From an uncultured Ardenticatenia bacterium (GTDB lineage: Bacteria; Chloroflexota; Anaerolineae; 4572-78; NAK82), in contig CAKZLO010000044.1 of the NCBI GenBank assembly GCA_937127125.1, positions 1-63,769 of the forward strand: a DNA stretch of 63,769 nucleotides, given 5' to 3'. This document shows, one piece after another, positions 51,626 through 63,769 of this stretch. Each line of letters starts with the position of its first letter. Position 1 is the first letter of the stretch. A program made the position numbers and the translations under genes. The notes beneath the pieces are model-generated. The model made no database searches, was not told the DNA's origin, and saw nothing but the letters and a program-made list of their open reading frames with translations.

Positions 51626-53641
51626 CTAGCATAGCGCTGCGTGAATGAGTTCAATCAGCTCTTTAACCGCCATGCGGTTCTCATAACCGGTCGTCTTGAC
51701 CGCGTCTCGGTACATGGTGACATCCTTAGGGCACGTCACCACCAATGTCTGTACGTTATCCAGCTTGACCGCCTCGCGGATGCGCGCTTCGCTGGGGCGT
51801 TCCTGCACTGCCTGTTCCTCCATCCAGATGCGTCCGCCACCGGCTCCGCAGCAAGCCGCCCGGTCGCCGCAGCGCGGCATCTCAATCAACTGGCAGCCGG
51901 TCGCCAGGATGAGGCGGCGCGGTGCGTCATACACACCGTTGTAGCGGCCCAGATAGCACGGATCGCTGTAGGTGACCGTGTATCCCAGCCGATGGGTGAA
52001 TTTCAGCGCGCCCGACGCCAACATCTGGTCGAGCAGCTCGGTGTAGTGCAGCACAGGCCGACCGTCGAGCACCTCGCGGGGATATTCGTTCTTGAGGGTG
52101 TTGTACGAATGCGGATCGGTGGTGATGATCGCCTTGAACGAGCAGCGGCTCAGCACGGCTGCATTGCGATGCACCAGCATGTCGTACAGTCCCTCTTCGC
52201 CCACCCGTCGCACGTCGTTGCCAGCATTGCGCTCCCCGTCGTACAGGATGCCAAAGTCCAGGCCGAGTTTCTGGAACACTTCTGCCGTCTTGCGCGTGAT
52301 GTCGGTCAGAGTGGTGCTGTAGGAAGCGTAGTCGCCTACGAACCAGAGATACTCGACGCTTTCCTTGCGCGCGTCCTTGATGGGTGTTTCCAGCGTCTGC
52401 GCCCAGCGTGCACGGACACGCTCCGACTGGCCGAACGAGTTGCCGTAGCGTCCCAGGTTGGCCAGCGCCTCCTGTAGCATGCTGTCCATGCGACCTTCGT
52501 TCACCAGTTGGCGCCGCATGTCGACCATGGTATCCACATGCTCGATGAACACGGGGCACTCACGCACGCAGGCGCCACAGGTGGTGCACGACCACAGGAT
52601 GGCATCCTTGACCACCTCGCCGACCAGCGCAGGCACCTTGTCCGACCCGTTGCCGTTCTTGAGCAATGTCCGACCGTCGCGCCGCAGCGCGGTGCGGATA
52701 TCCACCATGAGTTCCTTGGGGCTGAGCGGTGTGCCCGCGGCGAAGGCAGGACAGGCATCCTGACAACGCCCACATTCGGTGCACGCTTCGCTGTCCAACA
52801 GCTGCTTCCAGGTGAGATCGCGCAGGCTGGTGACGAAGAGTGGCTCGCCGGCGGAGGTCTGGGGCTGAGGCGCGAGTTGTCCCATCGGACGATCGAGTTT
52901 AGAGAAGAAGACGTTCAGCGGGCCGGTGACCACGTGTAGCATGGTGCTCATTGGCAAAGTGACGAACAGGGTGGCCGCGCTGAGCAGGTGGAAGGCCCAC
53001 AGGCCAAGATGCCAGTTCAGGAGTGCTTGGTCGGACGCTCCCGTGGAGAGCCACAGCTGCCCTACCAGCCAAGCGAAAGGCGTCCACCAGGCCCATTCCG
53101 GTCGCTCGACCGCCAGACGTGTCGAGGTGACCGCCAAGCCGCCGACCACGATCACCACGATGAGCACTAGCGAGTAGGTGAAACGTGGCGCCAGGGTGAG
53201 GCGGCGCGGTCGCTGGATGTAGCGTCGGTAGGCTGCCATTACGGCGCCGACCAGAAAGACCAGCGTGAACAGGTCCAGGACAAGCTTATAAATGAGATAG
53301 GTGTTGCCGCGCAAAAAGGTGATGAAATGCGAATGAATCGTCGCCAGGATGGTGCCCCACAGGAATACGAAGAAGGCCCAGGCAAGCGCGATATGCATCA
53401 CGCCCGGATAACGCTGGCTGAGCACGCGCACCTGCACGATGGCATACTTGATCAGACGCCACACCCGGATGTGCAGCTGGTCCCAACGCTTCTCGCTCCG
53501 TCCCAGCCGCCACCACAGGCTGACGGCCTGGTAGAGGCGGAAGAGCAACACCAGCGACGCCAGGCCCATGATCCCGTAGGCATACACCTCCGGCGGCCCC
53601 CAAGTATGTGGGATACCCCAAAAATCAATGCGTTCCGGCAT
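51626..53641 (-). CDS. EtfD-type membrane oxidoreductase (NarI-like domain + Fe-S + CCG domains)
   Basis: A 671-residue fusion. The N-terminal half has five to six membrane helices (about 20-41, 82-103, 115-137, 153-175, 210-238) of the NarI/HdrE cytochrome b type with histidines on helices. Then come two 4Fe-4S motifs, CTECGRCQDACP (about 287-298) and CTTCGACVRECP (about 352-363), and two cysteine-rich CCG domains, ending SDPCYLGRYNG and CCGAGGGRIW. The layout matches the Etf:menaquinone oxidoreductase EtfD of acyl-CoA oxidation systems. Its gene directly follows EtfA, supporting electron flow between EtfAB and the quinone pool. An HdrDE-type reductase is the alternative. Confidence 0.87.
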   Translation of the reverse strand: MPERIDFWGIPHTWGPPEVYAYGIMGLASLVLLFRLYQAVSLWWRLGRSEKRWDQLHIRVWRLIKYAIVQVRVLSQRYPGVMHIALAWAFFVFLWGTILATIHSHFITFLRGNTYLIYKLVLDLFTLVFLVGAVMAAYRRYIQRPRRLTLAPRFTYSLVLIVVIVVGGLAVTSTRLAVERPEWAWWTPFAWLVGQLWLSTGASDQALLNWHLGLWAFHLLSAATLFVTLPMSTMLHVVTGPLNVFFSKLDRPMGQLAPQPQTSAGEPLFVTSLRDLTWKQLLDSEACTECGRCQDACPAFAAGTPLSPKELMVDIRTALRRDGRTLLKNGNGSDKVPALVGEVVKDAILWSCTTCGACVRECPVFIEHVDTMVDMRRQLVNEGRMDSMLQEALANLGRYGNSFGQSERVRARWAQTLETPIKDARKESVEYLWFVGDYASYSTTLTDITRKTAEVFQKLGLDFGILYDGERNAGNDVRRVGEEGLYDMLVHRNAAVLSRCSFKAIITTDPHSYNTLKNEYPREVLDGRPVLHYTELLDQMLASGALKFTHRLGYTVTYSDPCYLGRYNGVYDAPRRLILATGCQLIEMPRCGDRAACCGAGGGRIWMEEQAVQERPSEARIREAVKLDNVQTLVVTCPKDVTMYRDAVKTTGYENRMAVKELIELIHAALC

Positions 53642-53668
53642 CGTTGCACGCTCCTTTCTGCGCCATGT

Positions 53669-54640
53669 TTACTGCTTTGCCTGACGCACTTTTTCAGTGA
53701 GCACGGGGACGAGGTCAAGCAGGTCGAGCGTTGTCCCATAGCGAGCGATGTCAAAGATGGGCGCGCTCGCATCGGTGTTGACGGCGATGATCGTCTGGCT
53801 GTCGGTGATGGCTTCGGCGTGCTCGGGTGCACCGCTGATGCCGAGTGCCAGGTAGAGACGCGGCTTGACGCGCTTGCCCGACTTGCCCACCAGCCGTGTC
53901 GTGGGCAGCCAACCTTGGTCGACCACGGGGCGTGATGCGCTCACTACGCCACCTATCGCTTCGGCCAGCTCGCGCACCAGCTCGATGTTATCCGCGTTCT
54001 GGATGCCACGGCCCACTGAAACCAGGATCGCCTCCTTGGAGATGTCCACATCGCCACTTTCCGGCTCGATGTACTGCTTGAGCGTGATGCGTCCGGCGGC
54101 CAGGGCGGGTGGTGCCACGGTCTCAACGGGTGGCGGCTGGGTGCTTTTACCCTGTTCGGCCTGGTATCCACCGGGCACCATGGCTACCAGGGCTGTCGGC
54201 GCGGGCAATTCGCCCTCGACCATCACTTTGCCGCCGCACAGCTGGCTGACATACGTCAGGCGGCCGTCGTCGGCGCGCACGTTGCGACAGTAGCTGACCA
54301 GTGGCAGGCCTAGCTGCACCGAGAGCGCACCGGCCAGCTCGGCGCCGATCGAGGTATCGCCAAACAAGACCGCGCGTGGCGCGCTGGCGCTGATCAGATT
54401 GGCCAGCACCTGCTGATACACATCTGGGACGAAGTTGGCGAGCAGGGGATCATCCACGGCCAATACGCGGTCCACGGCAACATCCTGCGCCAGGTCTTTC
54501 ACATTGTGCCCCAGCAGCAGGCCCACGACATTGCCACCGCTGGCGGCAGCCATCTGACGCGCGGCGGCACACAGGACATACGAGATATCGGCAATCTGCC
54601 CTCTCAGGTGTTCGATGATTACATAGATGTCCTGACTCAT
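53669..54640 (-). CDS. etfA: Electron transfer flavoprotein alpha subunit
   Basis: A 323-residue EtfA. The C-terminal FAD domain has the conserved AILVSVGRGIQNADN, SRPVVDQGWLP, GKSGKRVKPRLYLALGISGA and INTD-type VNTDASAPIFDIARYG. The N-terminal domain covers about 1-190. ATG 54640 lies seven bases behind AGGAG; an in-frame GTG at 54646 is weaker. Together with EtfB it accepts electrons from flavin dehydrogenases or, in this context, from the Fe-S protein upstream. Confidence 0.93.
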   Translation of the reverse strand: MSQDIYVIIEHLRGQIADISYVLCAAARQMAAASGGNVVGLLLGHNVKDLAQDVAVDRVLAVDDPLLANFVPDVYQQVLANLISASAPRAVLFGDTSIGAELAGALSVQLGLPLVSYCRNVRADDGRLTYVSQLCGGKVMVEGELPAPTALVAMVPGGYQAEQGKSTQPPPVETVAPPALAAGRITLKQYIEPESGDVDISKEAILVSVGRGIQNADNIELVRELAEAIGGVVSASRPVVDQGWLPTTRLVGKSGKRVKPRLYLALGISGAPEHAEAITDSQTIIAVNTDASAPIFDIARYGTTLDLLDLVPVLTEKVRQAKQ

Positions 54641-54673
54641 TGTCACACTCCTGTTGGTTGTCCTCGCTGACCT

Positions 54674-55438
54674 CTACAGCACGCCTAACTCGCGGAAGAG
54701 TTCTACCAGGCGGCTGGCGACCTCATCCGGTTTGCCCTCAATCATGGTGGCGCGTGCGGCGGCCTCGGGCTTGTACATGCGCGACACCGTCGGCCCACCG
54801 CTCACGTCCAGGCCTTCCACCGTCTGTTCTTCGATGGAGGCCGTCTTCATAGCCTGGCGGATGCGGGTGAAGGCCACATAACGCGGCGGCTGATCGGCTG
54901 CTTGGATGCCCAGCACAGCGGGCAACACCACCTCCATCTCGGCGACCAGCCCACCCGGGTACTCCTTGCGCACCACAGCGCGACCGTCGCTGAGTGTCAC
55001 ACCTGCTATGTAGCCGACGTAGGGAAATCCCAGGTAGGCTGCCAGGAGTGGCCCCATGGAACCGTCCAGGTCGCTGTGGCTCTGGACGCCGGTCAGCACC
55101 AGGTCGGGTTGCAGCGGCTTAATCAGGTTGGCGACGGCGCACGCCATGGCATGGTTGTTCACAGACTGGCCGAAGTTGCCACACAACTTGATCAGGCGGT
55201 CGGCTCCTTTGGCGGCCGCGGTGTAGAGCACATCGTCAACACCTTCGACGTCGGGAGCCATCACCGTTACCTGTCCGCCGCCACGCTCTTTGAGCAGGAT
55301 GGCTTGCTCGATGGCGTGGCCATCAAATTCGTTGAGCTGCAGACGCAGCGTGTCGGGGTCGAGGGTGGTGCCGCTTGGGTCTATGACCAGCTCCTCGACC
55401 AGGTCAGGTACGAGCTTGACTGGAACGACAATGTGCAT
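54674..55438 (-). CDS. etfB: Electron transfer flavoprotein beta subunit
   Basis: A 254-residue EtfB. It starts MHIVVPVKLVPDLVEELVID, and has the NEFDGHAIEQAI helix, the VLTGVQSHSDLDGSMGPLLAAYLG AMP-site region and the VLPAVLGIQ segment. AGGGAGGG lies before the ATG. Whether it is a bifurcating Etf (FAD in place of AMP) cannot be settled by eye. It is co-transcribed with EtfA and EtfD. Confidence 0.93.
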   Translation of the reverse strand: MHIVVPVKLVPDLVEELVIDPSGTTLDPDTLRLQLNEFDGHAIEQAILLKERGGGQVTVMAPDVEGVDDVLYTAAAKGADRLIKLCGNFGQSVNNHAMACAVANLIKPLQPDLVLTGVQSHSDLDGSMGPLLAAYLGFPYVGYIAGVTLSDGRAVVRKEYPGGLVAEMEVVLPAVLGIQAADQPPRYVAFTRIRQAMKTASIEEQTVEGLDVSGGPTVSRMYKPEAAARATMIEGKPDEVASRLVELFRELGVL

Positions 55439-55457
55439 GGCTTTACCCTCCCTTGTG

Positions 55458-56666
55458 TCAGTCGCCCATGGCTTCGGCGAGCAGTTCGGCGATGTCTTTT
55501 ACGATGAGGCGGCTGGCGCCTGGCACGACTTTGGTGGCGTCCTCAAAGCGGGGTGCCTCGTAGGGGCACGCCACAGCCAGGATGTCGGCGCCAACCTGCA
55601 TAGCCTCGCGCACACGCCATTCGGACAGGCGCGTGTGGGCTTTTTCCCAATGGAAACCGTCCATCCACATCCCGCCGCCACCGCCGCCACAGCAGAGGCT
55701 GGTGGTGCGGTTGTGGGGCATTTCCACCAGCTCCACACCCGGGATGGCGCTGAGCAGCTGGCGGGGTGCTTCGAACACATCATTGGCGCGACCCAGGTAG
55801 CATGGGTCATGGTAGGTCACGCGCGCATTCACTTCACCCTTGAACAAAGATTTCAGCGCGTCCAGGCGCTCTGCCAGGAATTCGGTGTAGTGGCGCACGG
55901 GGTACACGATGCCCAGCTTGGGGTATTCGTTCTTGAAGGCGTTGTAGGCGTGCGGGTCGCCGGTGATGATCTCCTTGAACTCGTATTGCGACAGCGCGCG
56001 CTCGTTCTTGGCGGCGAGCATCTCAAAGAGGCCACGCTCGCCTGCCAGCCGCTGCGAGTCGCCATCGCTGACCTCCTCGGCGCCCAGAATGCCAAAGTCC
56101 ACGTGCAGAGCGTTGAGCACGTTGGCCAGCGCACGGCTGACCGGTTGCACGCGCGGGTGATAGGAGCCGTAATCACCCACGAACCACAATACGTCCACCG
56201 GCCGGCGCTCCTCGCTCATGATGGGCACGCGCGGTTTGACGCCCTTCGCCCAATCGGCCCGTTTGCGCGGCGACTCGCCCAAGGGGTTGCCGTAGCGCTG
56301 CGTGTTCTCCAGCGCAACCTGCAGTTCGGACGGGATGTTGCCGGCCAGCAAGAGCTCCTCTTTGGCACGCGTCATCAAGCCAGCGGTGAGCGGGATGCGC
56401 ACCGGACAGACTTCGCTGCACGCGTAGCACGAGACGCACATCCACACCGTGTCCGCTTCGGTCACCCGCTCAAAGCGCTGGGCGCGCAATGCGGCAACCA
56501 TCTTGCCCGGGGGATAATCCATCAGATAGCCATAGGGACATACCCCGTTGCAGGTGCCACACTGCAGACAGGTGCGCACCTTCTCCCCCCCAGCGATTTC
56601 GTGCAGACTGGCGTAGAAGCTCTGGCTGAAGGTGGTGGAACTTTGAGAGACTGTCGTCGTTGCCAT
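55458..56666 (-). CDS. HdrD/GlpC-like (Fe-S)-binding protein with CCG domains
   Basis: A 402-residue soluble protein. Two 4Fe-4S motifs sit at the N-terminus (CLQCGTCNGVCPYG, CVSCYACSEVCP), followed by two CCG domains with HDPCYLGRANDVFEAP and CCGGGGGGMW. This is the HdrC-HdrB fusion layout (HdrD). It can reduce a disulphide with its non-cubane clusters or relay electrons. It is the first gene of the operon, behind the promoter at 56765-56793, and has AGGAGGT before its ATG. It is related to the C-terminal half of the EtfD protein. Confidence 0.9.
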   Translation of the reverse strand: MATTTVSQSSTTFSQSFYASLHEIAGGEKVRTCLQCGTCNGVCPYGYLMDYPPGKMVAALRAQRFERVTEADTVWMCVSCYACSEVCPVRIPLTAGLMTRAKEELLLAGNIPSELQVALENTQRYGNPLGESPRKRADWAKGVKPRVPIMSEERRPVDVLWFVGDYGSYHPRVQPVSRALANVLNALHVDFGILGAEEVSDGDSQRLAGERGLFEMLAAKNERALSQYEFKEIITGDPHAYNAFKNEYPKLGIVYPVRHYTEFLAERLDALKSLFKGEVNARVTYHDPCYLGRANDVFEAPRQLLSAIPGVELVEMPHNRTTSLCCGGGGGGMWMDGFHWEKAHTRLSEWRVREAMQVGADILAVACPYEAPRFEDATKVVPGASRLIVKDIAELLAEAMGD

Positions 56667-57540: not shown

Positions 57541-57569
57541 AGTATAATGCTGATAGGGCGAATGGGCAA
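57541..57569 (-). promoter_or_regulatory. Promoter of the GNAT gene
   Basis: On the minus strand TTGCCC (57564-57569), 17 bases and TATACT (57541-57546). Confidence 0.65.
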
Positions 57570-57693
57570 TTGGGCGGCAAGGCAATCCAACGCTGTGGCG
57601 GCTGCGCTGCGCATTGCCTCGGGTGGAGCTGGGGGTGGTCTTGCCGGGACGGGGGAAGGGTGGCCCCCGCCCCCAGCAGACCGTTTATGGCGC

Positions 57694-58449
57694 CTATTTC
57701 CCCAGCAGTTGGGTGAGCTTCTCGACGTCGAAATCCACTACGACGGTGCCGTTGATGTAAAATGTGGGTGTTACCAGGTGGCCGTTGGCCCACTGGCGCA
57801 CCTGTCGTGCTGCTTGCGGATTGGCGTTGACGTCGACCTCGGTGTATTGCAGCCCGCGCTCCTCCAACCAGGCGCGTGCCCGTCGGCAATCGCCACACCA
57901 ACGCGTGCAGTAGAGCACAATGCCCTCTTTGGGCGGTTGTGCTGCTGGTGTTGCCTGTCCGGCAGGGTATTTTGCCGCCAATGCGGGCTCCAGCTTGCGC
58001 AACTCAGCCAGCAACACCTCGTTATCCGGCTGATCGTCGATGTTGTGCACATCGATGTAGCGGATGATTCCCTGCTTGTCGATCAGGAAGATCGCCCGCT
58101 CGGAGTATCCCTCCGCGCGCAGGACCCCATATTGCTTGGCGACCTCGCCATGGGGCCAGAAGTCGCTCAGCAAGGGATAGCTGATGCCGCCCAGACTTTC
58201 TGCCCATGCTTTCAGGCAGGGTATATGATCCACGCTTATGCCCAGGACCTGGGCATCTAATGCCCCAAACTTGGCCATGTCGGCCTCGTAAGCGGGCATC
58301 TGATTCGTTCAGACGGGTGTCCAGGCAAGCGGGTAAAACACCAGCACCACGTTCTTGCTGCCGCGCAGGTCACTCAGCGTGATGCGCTTGCCCAGGTGGC
58401 TGGGCAGACTGAAATCAGGCGCCCTGTCTCCCACTTTCAGATGCGTCAT
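57694..58449 (-). CDS. Selenocysteine peroxiredoxin-glutaredoxin fusion (in-frame TGA at codon 47)
   Basis: Reading through one TGA (58311-58309) gives a complete 251-residue protein. The N-terminal AhpC/TSA-type domain (1-165) starts [20 protein letters not shown] and has [10 protein letters not shown], then TNQ, so Sec47 replaces the peroxidatic Cys of the T-x2-C motif. The C-terminal glutaredoxin domain (about 177-251) has the redox motif CGDC (185-188) and [14 protein letters not shown] lies nine bases before ATG 58449 and a consensus-like promoter is upstream. Product: a thiol peroxidase with an attached reductant. Without Sec, the frame from 58299 would lack the active site. A true nonsense mutation is less likely, because the flanking reading frame is intact and a SECIS-like hairpin follows. 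Confidence 0.88.
58261..58298 (-). promoter_or_regulatory. Putative bacterial SECIS element
   Basis: Directly downstream of the TGA, TGCCC, CTT and GGCC pair with GGCC, AAG and GGGCA around the apical loop GACAT (58281-58277). The loop begins with G and starts about 27 bases after the TGA, in the range reported for bacterial SECIS. Small internal loops (g/tttg and acga) break the stem. The element lies in the coding sequence, as expected in bacteria. Confidence 0.7.
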
Positions 58450-58501
58450 AGGCTGTCCTCCTAGTATTGGGATATGGCATTATTGACTAATATGATGGAC
58501 A

Positions 58502-58530
58502 ATTATAGCATACTATAGTGCAGCATGCAA
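58502..58530 (-). promoter_or_regulatory. Promoter of the peroxiredoxin gene
   Basis: On the minus strand TTGCAT (58525-58530), 17 bases and TATAAT (58502-58507), giving a leader of about 46 bases. Confidence 0.75.
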
Positions 58531-58617
58531 ATTCTGTTGAGGTGCAGCGGCGAGGCAGGGGGAACCCGCGACTGCCTCCGATCCGCGACCCGTGCGGAAG
58601 TGGCGGAGAGGGAGGAC

Positions 58618-59181
58618 TCACCCAGCCGCAGGGCGCGCACGTCGGCTGACCCGCCGCACCAGCCAGGCGATCACGCCGATCACCAGCACAGCAATGGCAA
58701 GCGGCACCAGGATGGCCAGCAACGAGGTGACAAGGGCGATGATGTCCTCGATGGTGCTGACCAGCCAGTTGCCCATGCCACCTGTGACCGCAGTGATGAG
58801 GGGGCGTCCGCTGGCCTTGGCGGCATGCACGCCACCCGCCACTATCAGCCCGCAGATGAGCGCCAGCACGGGGTGGAATTGCCCCAGCGAGCCCGAATTG
58901 GCGGCAAAGAGGATGGCGCCCGCCGCCGGCCGGATGACTGTGTTGATGATGTCGTTGACCGTGTCCACGGCGGGCACTTTGTCGGCGATGATTTCGATGA
59001 TGAGCAGCACGGCCAGCACGCCGATCGCCCACCAGCTGGTCAGCGCATCCCAGGGCGGACGCAACTGCACCAGGTCGGTGAAGCGCGCCAGCAGCGCCAC
59101 GATCAACAGAGGCAGGTAGGCGTTCAGCCCGGCGGCCGAGGAGAGCCCCAGCGCCGAGAACAGATGCAACACGGTTTCCAT
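58618..59181 (-). CDS. DUF4126 membrane protein
   Basis: A 187-residue integral membrane protein with about five helices. The opening LFSALGLSSAAGLNAYLPLL and AADKVPAVDTVNDIINTVIRPAAGA-type core (here ADKVPAVDTVNDIINTV) are characteristic of DUF4126. The C-terminus is arginine-rich and cytoplasmic. GAGGGG precedes the ATG. Function is unknown in the family. Confidence 0.86.
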   Translation of the reverse strand: METVLHLFSALGLSSAAGLNAYLPLLIVALLARFTDLVQLRPPWDALTSWWAIGVLAVLLIIEIIADKVPAVDTVNDIINTVIRPAAGAILFAANSGSLGQFHPVLALICGLIVAGGVHAAKASGRPLITAVTGGMGNWLVSTIEDIIALVTSLLAILVPLAIAVLVIGVIAWLVRRVSRRARPAAG

Positions 59182-63049: not shown

Positions 63050-63300
63050 GACACTTTTTACACACATTACACACTTTACACACTTTACACACTTTACACA
63101 CTTACACACTTTACACACTTACACACTTTACACACTTTACACACTTTACACACTTTACACAGTTTACACACTTACACACTTTACACACATTACACACTTT
63201 ACACACATTACACACTTTACACACTTACACACTTTACACACTTTACACAGTTTACACACTTGACACACTTGACACACATAACACATGACACACATACAGA
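63050..63300 (+). repeat. Tandem array of the 9-bp repeat ACACTTTAC
   Basis: About 25 copies of ACACTTTAC run head to tail, with 8-bp variants lacking one T and occasional ACAGTTTAC or ACACATTAC units. The array decays towards 63300 into TGACACAC units. It begins about 45 bases after the ATPase stop. Reading frames through it encode simple His-Thr-Leu repeats and are not genes. Confidence 0.9.
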
Positions 63301-63691: not shown

Positions 63692-63769
63692 GTGTGTAAA
63701 CTGTGTCAAGTATGTAAGTGTGTAAAGTGTGTAATGTGTGTAACTGTGTAATGTGTGTAAAGTGTGTAA
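63692..63769 (-). repeat. Inverted array of the same 9-bp repeat at the window end
   Basis: GTGTAAAGT and variants (GTGTAATGT, GTGTAACT) fill the last 78 bases. They are the reverse complement of the array at 63050-63300, so the two arrays face each other across the 44-bp repeat region. The array runs off the window. Confidence 0.88.

Follow-up and report, generated by a model that had tools for sequence, protein, structure and literature searches.

Mycobacterial AhpE (Rv2238c) is a 1-Cys peroxiredoxin (Prx), as the titles of its PDB entries state, and a review reports that mycoredoxin-1 (Mrx1) reduces it either directly or via mycothiol (PMC4360819). A Prx joined to a glutaredoxin (Grx) on a single chain is known from Haemophilus influenzae, whose PGdx is described as a hybrid Prx-Grx and a glutathione-dependent peroxidase (PMC1361801). 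Selenocysteine (Sec) is the peroxidatic residue of the Sec-peroxiredoxins, or TxxU Prx family, where it lies in the TxxU motif (PMC13188914, Table 1). That inventory, from 2026, comprises 119 prokaryotic selenoprotein families and subfamilies and, in its section 7, names Prx and Grx singly (PMC13188914); the row of the TxxU family holds a Prx domain only, and the selenoproteome table has no row for a Sec-Prx-Grx fusion. No description of such a fusion was found in the literature searched either.

The locus considered here lies in a stretch of 63,769 nucleotides (the window; contig CAKZLO010000044.1) from the assembly of an uncultured Ardenticatenia bacterium (Chloroflexota, Anaerolineae; GCA_937127125.1; 3.7 Mb, 85 contigs, 95% complete). 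Judged from sequence comparisons, its gene very probably encodes a selenoprotein with a peroxidase function, in which an AhpE-like Prx with Sec at position 47 is fused to a dithiol Grx. Sec-Prx and Prx-Grx hybrids are each known; what is new is their combination, the presence of two extra cysteines and the fact that no Cys version has been found.

Reading frame, domains and relatives of the fusion

The frame runs on the minus strand from ATG 58449 to a TAG ending at 57694, and its sole internal stop is the TGA at codon 47 of 251, in the context A-W-T-P-V-U-T-N-Q, as the sequence-only reading had proposed when it placed a single TGA at the peroxidatic cysteine position of an otherwise open frame. 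The good ribosome site and promoter that it described are also found: AGGAGG stands 7 nt before the ATG, and a candidate promoter, TTTGCA-18-TATAAT, agrees with the consensus at 10 of 12 positions. Promoter-like sites on both strands of 57560-58640 number 4, against 0.4 in shuffles, these being consensus matches only. The mechanical list of open reading frames contains only a 201-aa piece of the gene, starting at ATG 58299 (codon 51), and on that measure the gene is indeed missed by gene calling. The coordinates of the features are collected in Table 1.

Table 1. Features of the predicted fusion gene and its expression signals, in positions of the window
Feature	Position	Strand	Basis
Predicted Sec-peroxiredoxin/glutaredoxin fusion gene	57694..58449	-	251 codons + TAG; translated with TGA read as Sec, Pfam, 43 fused loci
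In-frame TGA, codon 47, predicted peroxidatic Sec	58309..58311	-	TGA in 43/43 fused, TGC/TGT in 67/87 unfused loci
AhpE-like peroxiredoxin domain (AhpC-TSA)	58054..58434	-	Pfam, PDB sequence and fold matches
Cys78, proposed resolving cysteine	58216..58218	-	40/43 fused, 0/18 unfused Sec, 7/62 Cys homologues
Glutaredoxin domain, C181-x3-C185-x2-C188	57739..57921	-	Pfam; Cys four before CxxC in 41/41 distinct fused proteins
Cys181 codon	57907..57909	-	Invariant in 41/41 distinct fused proteins
Shine-Dalgarno AGGAGG	58457..58462	-	Sequence; 7 nt before ATG
Candidate sigma-70-like promoter, TG ahead of second hexamer	58502..58531	-	Consensus match only
SECIS-like hairpin in mRNA	58261..58298	-	Fold z, synonymous-codon controls, pair counts

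The upstream neighbour is a DUF4126 gene (58618-59181) that terminates in TGA. When the neighbourhoods of 14 loci were compared (13 in named genomes, with at most about 4 kb per side, and that of the window), no family recurred in three or more of them, barring the fusion gene itself and frames on the opposite strand. Elsewhere on the minus strand of the window, at 51626-56666, two Fe-S/CCG-domain proteins surround an electron transfer flavoprotein pair (ETF domains), a cluster with the appearance of an ETF-linked heterodisulfide-reductase-type electron transfer unit. At 63057-63293 there are short tandem repeats of TTTACACAC, and the very end of the window (63692-63769) holds tandem repeats of GTGTGTAAA, which is the reverse complement of TTTACACAC in another phase.

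Pfam places AhpC-TSA at residues 6-132 of the fusion protein (E 1e-41) and Glutaredoxin at residues 177-237 (E 4e-15), so that the frame downstream of the TGA is intact and ends in a Grx with the CGDC site (W-C-G-D-C), as had been claimed. An AlphaFold2 model built with 22 aligned fusions reached a pLDDT of 88.9 and a pTM of 0.78; a first, alignment-free model (pLDDT 46) was set aside. M. tuberculosis AhpE supplies the top Foldseek matches of the Prx domain in the PDB (TM 0.94 of the target, 38-39% identity) and is also its closest solved structure by sequence; the modelled domain would thus have the AhpE fold. P40, T44 and residue 47 are invariant in the 22 aligned fusions, which corresponds to the PxxxTxxC/U motif of peroxiredoxins, and the conserved Arg is R118 in all 43 fused loci described below. 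The Grx domain has CxxC in the same 43 loci and the [TS]P[TV][FYIL] (cis-Pro) motif in 41 of them. Against the PDB it gave 13 weak matches (best E 4e-7), of which the second (E 2e-6) is Rv3198.1 (2lqo), presumably mycoredoxin-1.

Among the best 25 of 43 matches to NCBIfam, no model reached its cut-off on the window protein. The best Grx-type model was the YruB-family glutaredoxin TIGR02196 (58.5, cut-off 88.55), and the mycoredoxin model TIGR02200 scored 46.2 (cut-off 89.5); these sequence comparisons show the Grx domain to be similar to YruB-type Grx and to mycoredoxin. The PrxU model NF040737 scored 67.4 against a cut-off of 270; the window protein nevertheless shares with Eubacterium acidaminophilum PrxU and the TxxU Prx family the TxxU motif and its predicted use of Sec as the peroxidatic residue. 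HUGP/GUXX-star (NF045501) is likewise a fusion selenoprotein, and its C-terminal part matches the Grx domain of the window protein, but the match covers only window residues 172-240 and scores 39 against a cut-off of 325.

Relatives were collected from three sources: the window's genome together with 40 others near it (41 in all), GTDB contigs, where the 80 best of 587 loci were retained, and 396 genomes belonging to the window's class. Codon 47 was readable in 130 of the 152 loci, and a locus was called fused when at least 190 residues follow that codon. All 43 fused loci carry TGA at codon 47 and have no further stop before the gene end; a fusion with Cys at this codon is not among them. They encode 41 distinct proteins, two pairs being identical; the proteins of L129 (genome G136) and L044 (an Anaerolineales MAG) are the same. 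At the same codon the 87 unfused homologues have TGC (48), TGT (19), TGA (18), AGC (1) or TAC (1), and the alignment that the sequence-only reading had suggested thus shows mostly Cys or TGA at this position. The window gene, in other words, has an in-frame UGA where homologues have Cys. Because dozens of relatives share one design, the Prx-Grx fusion is a real protein family.

The fusion had been thought rare in this setting; it is not confined to one genome, as the class survey found 30 full-length cases in the 396 genomes, with exactly one TGA apiece. Partial matches in three further genomes (G297, G255 and G072), which also have the TGA, were left out of this count. A survey of 400 genomes of the phylum at E 1e-40 gave full-length fusions in 4, every one in the window's class. 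One fused locus, L056, stands in a record titled Actinobacteria bacterium UBA7524 (a MAG), a genome without a tRNA-Sec match, and may reflect transfer or mis-binning. Unfused Prx with TGA at codon 47 include L058, L059, L060, L067 and L081, from records titled Sulfobacillus, Chloroflexi, Eremiobacterota and Actinomycetes MAG; stand-alone Sec forms of this Prx, with 18 unfused TGA loci in all, appear widespread.

Cysteines that mark the fusion and a proposed redox relay

Two cysteines mark the fused form in the alignments, Cys78 in the Prx domain and Cys181 four residues before the CxxC of the Grx (counts in Table 1). The position of Cys181 is T or A in the six unfused Grx matches listed, and AhpE has a Thr where the window protein has Cys78 (pairwise alignment). 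Eighteen of the 62 Cys homologues carry instead Cys52, five residues past codon 47, which we take to be the PrxQ resolving site.

The protein would consist of an AhpE-like Prx with the peroxidatic Sec47, a variable linker and then the dithiol Grx. During catalysis, the selenolate of Sec47 would attack H2O2 or an organic peroxide to give a selenenic acid, with which Cys78 of the same domain could condense to form a selenenylsulfide. The tethered Grx, through Cys185/Cys188 and the invariant Cys181, would then reduce the Sec47-Cys78 bond, and would itself be re-reduced either by a thioredoxin reductase/thioredoxin system or by a low-molecular-weight thiol; a thioredoxin reductase is encoded in the window's genome (396 bits). 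The sequence-only reading had spoken of a self-contained enzyme, which is too strong because the Grx domain needs this outside donor for its own re-reduction. Beyond ordinary dithiol exchange, the C-x3-C-x2-C head of the Grx may have a further role.

We give the role of Cys78 as resolving cysteine, which is suggested by its distribution in the alignments, about an even chance. The competing account leaves the Sec-Prx-Grx protein real and touches only this step: the Grx would reduce the selenenic acid directly or via a low-molecular-weight thiol, and Cys78 would be non-resolving. It has a precedent in AhpE, a 1-Cys peroxiredoxin whose sulfenic acid is, according to the review, reduced directly by Mrx1 (PMC4360819), and Cys78 is missing from 3 of the 43 fusions; on the other hand, 40 of the 43 keep the residue and none of the 18 unfused Sec proteins has it, although the fusions belong to one clade. 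Direct reduction is therefore quite conceivable, at somewhat short of an even chance. The wider proposal, namely an undescribed selenoprotein family of one-chain peroxidases with the relay Sec47-Cys78-Cys181-Cys185-Cys188, in which acquiring the Grx was accompanied by a new cysteine for the resolving step and tied the enzyme to selenium, is in our judgement evenly balanced between right and wrong.

Because mycoredoxin-1 reduces mycobacterial AhpE, the fusion resembles an established redox pair brought onto one chain, and it would be the one-chain form of a pair such as AhpE and mycoredoxin-1. The likeness lies in AhpE matching the Prx domain best in both sequence and fold and in Rv3198.1 being among the matches of the Grx domain; the difference is that the mycobacterial partners are two separate proteins and that AhpE uses Cys instead of Sec. 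In a Bacillaceae MAG, an unfused Sec-Prx is preceded on its strand, at a distance of about 100 bases, by a separate Grx gene. PGdx is a Cys enzyme and its Prx is of the Prx5 type, unlike the window protein. What the two share, going by the published description of PGdx, is the joining of a Prx to a Grx on a single chain (PMC1361801).

Predicted decoding of the in-frame TGA

The UGA would be decoded by SelB and Sec-tRNA(Sec), helped by a hairpin that the coding sequence forms immediately after it. The search for selA, selB, selC (tRNA-Sec) and selD that the sequence-only reading had called for found all four in the window's genome, the set expected for a bacterial selenoprotein: selA scored 557 bits, selB 354 bits with both pieces of its frame, selD 385 bits and the tRNA-Sec 71.9 bits, above the Rfam cut-off, with the anticodon tca (ARAGORN). 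The selD gene (L125, G000:C25:17176-18111) has an in-frame TGA of its own, in the context SAAG-U-ASKLGP, and is predicted to encode a second selenoprotein of the same genome.

Across the class, selA is present in 26 of the 30 genomes with a fusion, which barely exceeds the proportion in the class as a whole (318 of 396), and its co-occurrence thus adds little. Three of the four fused genomes without selA have a tRNA-Sec above the cut-off (one barely, at 47.8 bits), and in G219 (77% complete) no selA and no tRNA-Sec exceeding the cut-off were found. Thirteen named genomes contain the fusion; the tRNA-Sec exceeds the cut-off in 10 of them (one only at 47 bits), and gave no match at E 1e-7 in the other 3, with 150 candidates scored per genome. 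Anaerolinea thermolimosa IMO-1 has a relative of the fusion and a tRNA-Sec of 75 bits.

The bacterial SECIS element (bSECIS) is a hairpin just downstream of the UGA, with its loop about 16-37 nt away and a G as the first or second base of that loop. The window hairpin conforms to this description, with base 28 past the UGA as the first base of its apical loop GACAU (58281-58277). The 61-base stretch from the TGA onwards has a folding energy of -23.4 kcal/mol (z -3.15; 1 of 200 shuffles was as good), and against synonymous-codon controls the downstream fold of the window has a z of -3.25. Over the 48 bases after codon 47, the mean z against such controls is -2.36 in 22 fusions, -1.93 in 40 Sec loci including those, and -0.02 in 67 Cys loci; this set does not include the 21 fusions fetched in the class survey, and its rows are related and not deduplicated, so that the p of 2e-12 from the folding test is overstated. 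Of 40 distinct fused sequences, 39 have a minimum-energy fold whose apical loop starts between bases 26 and 29 past the UGA, L054 being the exception.

The case for the hairpin rests on these single-sequence folds and on pair counts for a named structure of 13 pairs. In the 40 distinct fused sequences, 75.0% of its cells are paired, against 50.2% and 51.9% when the structure is slid by one column; 9 pairs have changed on both sides (reached by 5 of 500 shuffles), as have 36 cells, against a shuffle mean of 16.9 (reached by none of 500). The register belongs to the fusions, as the same columns are paired in only 38.6% of cells in the 67 Cys loci and in 48.3% in unfused Sec loci (47.0% when slid by +1). 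The loop criteria discriminate only partly, since a loop at 16-37 with the G is found not only in 31 of 40 fused sequences but also in 10 of 18 unfused Sec and 30 of 67 Cys loci. RNAalifold gave an empty consensus for the 40 fused sequences, and no Rfam match was found for the hairpin region. Synonymous change is lower in codons 1-24 after the TGA (0.32-0.46) than in codons 25-80 (0.54-0.61), which is weak support because codons 81-96 likewise stand at 0.46.

If the TGA were a true stop, the gene would yield a 46-aa N-terminal peptide and a 201-aa protein re-initiated from ATG 58299, and an ORF of that length does begin at codon 51. However, codon 51 is Ile in 38 of the 43 fused loci and Met in only 5, so re-initiation at this point is not conserved; the split would also be expected to break the Prx domain, and most homologues read Cys at the TGA position. 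Re-initiation was rejected as highly improbable on the strength of codon 51 and of the homologous Cys.

Less probable still, with hardly any likelihood left to it, is that the gene is dead or encodes a plain Cys enzyme, with a TGA that arose by mutation or from a miscalled TGC/TGT, even though a lone stop in an otherwise intact frame resembles a fresh nonsense mutation and the source is a draft genome in 85 contigs. The recurrence of the TGA in 41 distinct proteins rules out sequencing error, and the pseudogene was rejected on the same ground: the codon is present in every fused locus, down to relatives of about 53-54% identity, and synonymous changes predominate on both sides of it. Between the window and its congener L015, the 46 codons before the TGA show 13 synonymous and 6 nonsynonymous codon differences, and the next 110 codons after it show 28 and 8 (raw counts). 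Its presence at one codon position in all 43 fused loci, the lack of any other stop and this predominance of synonymous changes show that the TGA is not due to chance. A genome-wide reassignment of TGA to an amino acid such as Trp, under which the fusion frame would be open, has a negligible probability and was rejected, as the upstream DUF4126 gene and some fused relatives (L017, L018) terminate in TGA, most homologues have Cys at codon 47 and the four Sec genes are present.

Origin and significance of the fused form

A quick tree was computed from 118 Prx domains, 12 of the 130 having been left out (L008, L032, L034, L039 and L041 were removed by hand; the others were too short or had a different codon at position 47). 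The 43 fusions fall into one group (94% SH-aLRT) together with one long-branched unfused Sec protein, L079; the fusion label needs 2 changes on the tree, for which the program warns of long branches. By this tree, the fusion probably arose once, amid several neighbouring branches that are also Sec proteins. As there is essentially one fusion clade, the associations between residues and fusion represent one evolutionary event.

The selenoprotein reading extends the Sec-peroxiredoxins to a fusion that is present in 30 of the 396 genomes sampled in the class, and which ordinary annotation is expected to cut short, halving the gene, or to discard. The relative in the named strain Anaerolinea thermolimosa IMO-1 makes the prediction testable. 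The one-chain arrangement hints that the AhpE and mycoredoxin families are naturally linked, and, with all 43 fused copies keeping the TGA and their unfused relatives using Cys or Sec, the family would offer a clean case for why an enzyme stays with selenium.
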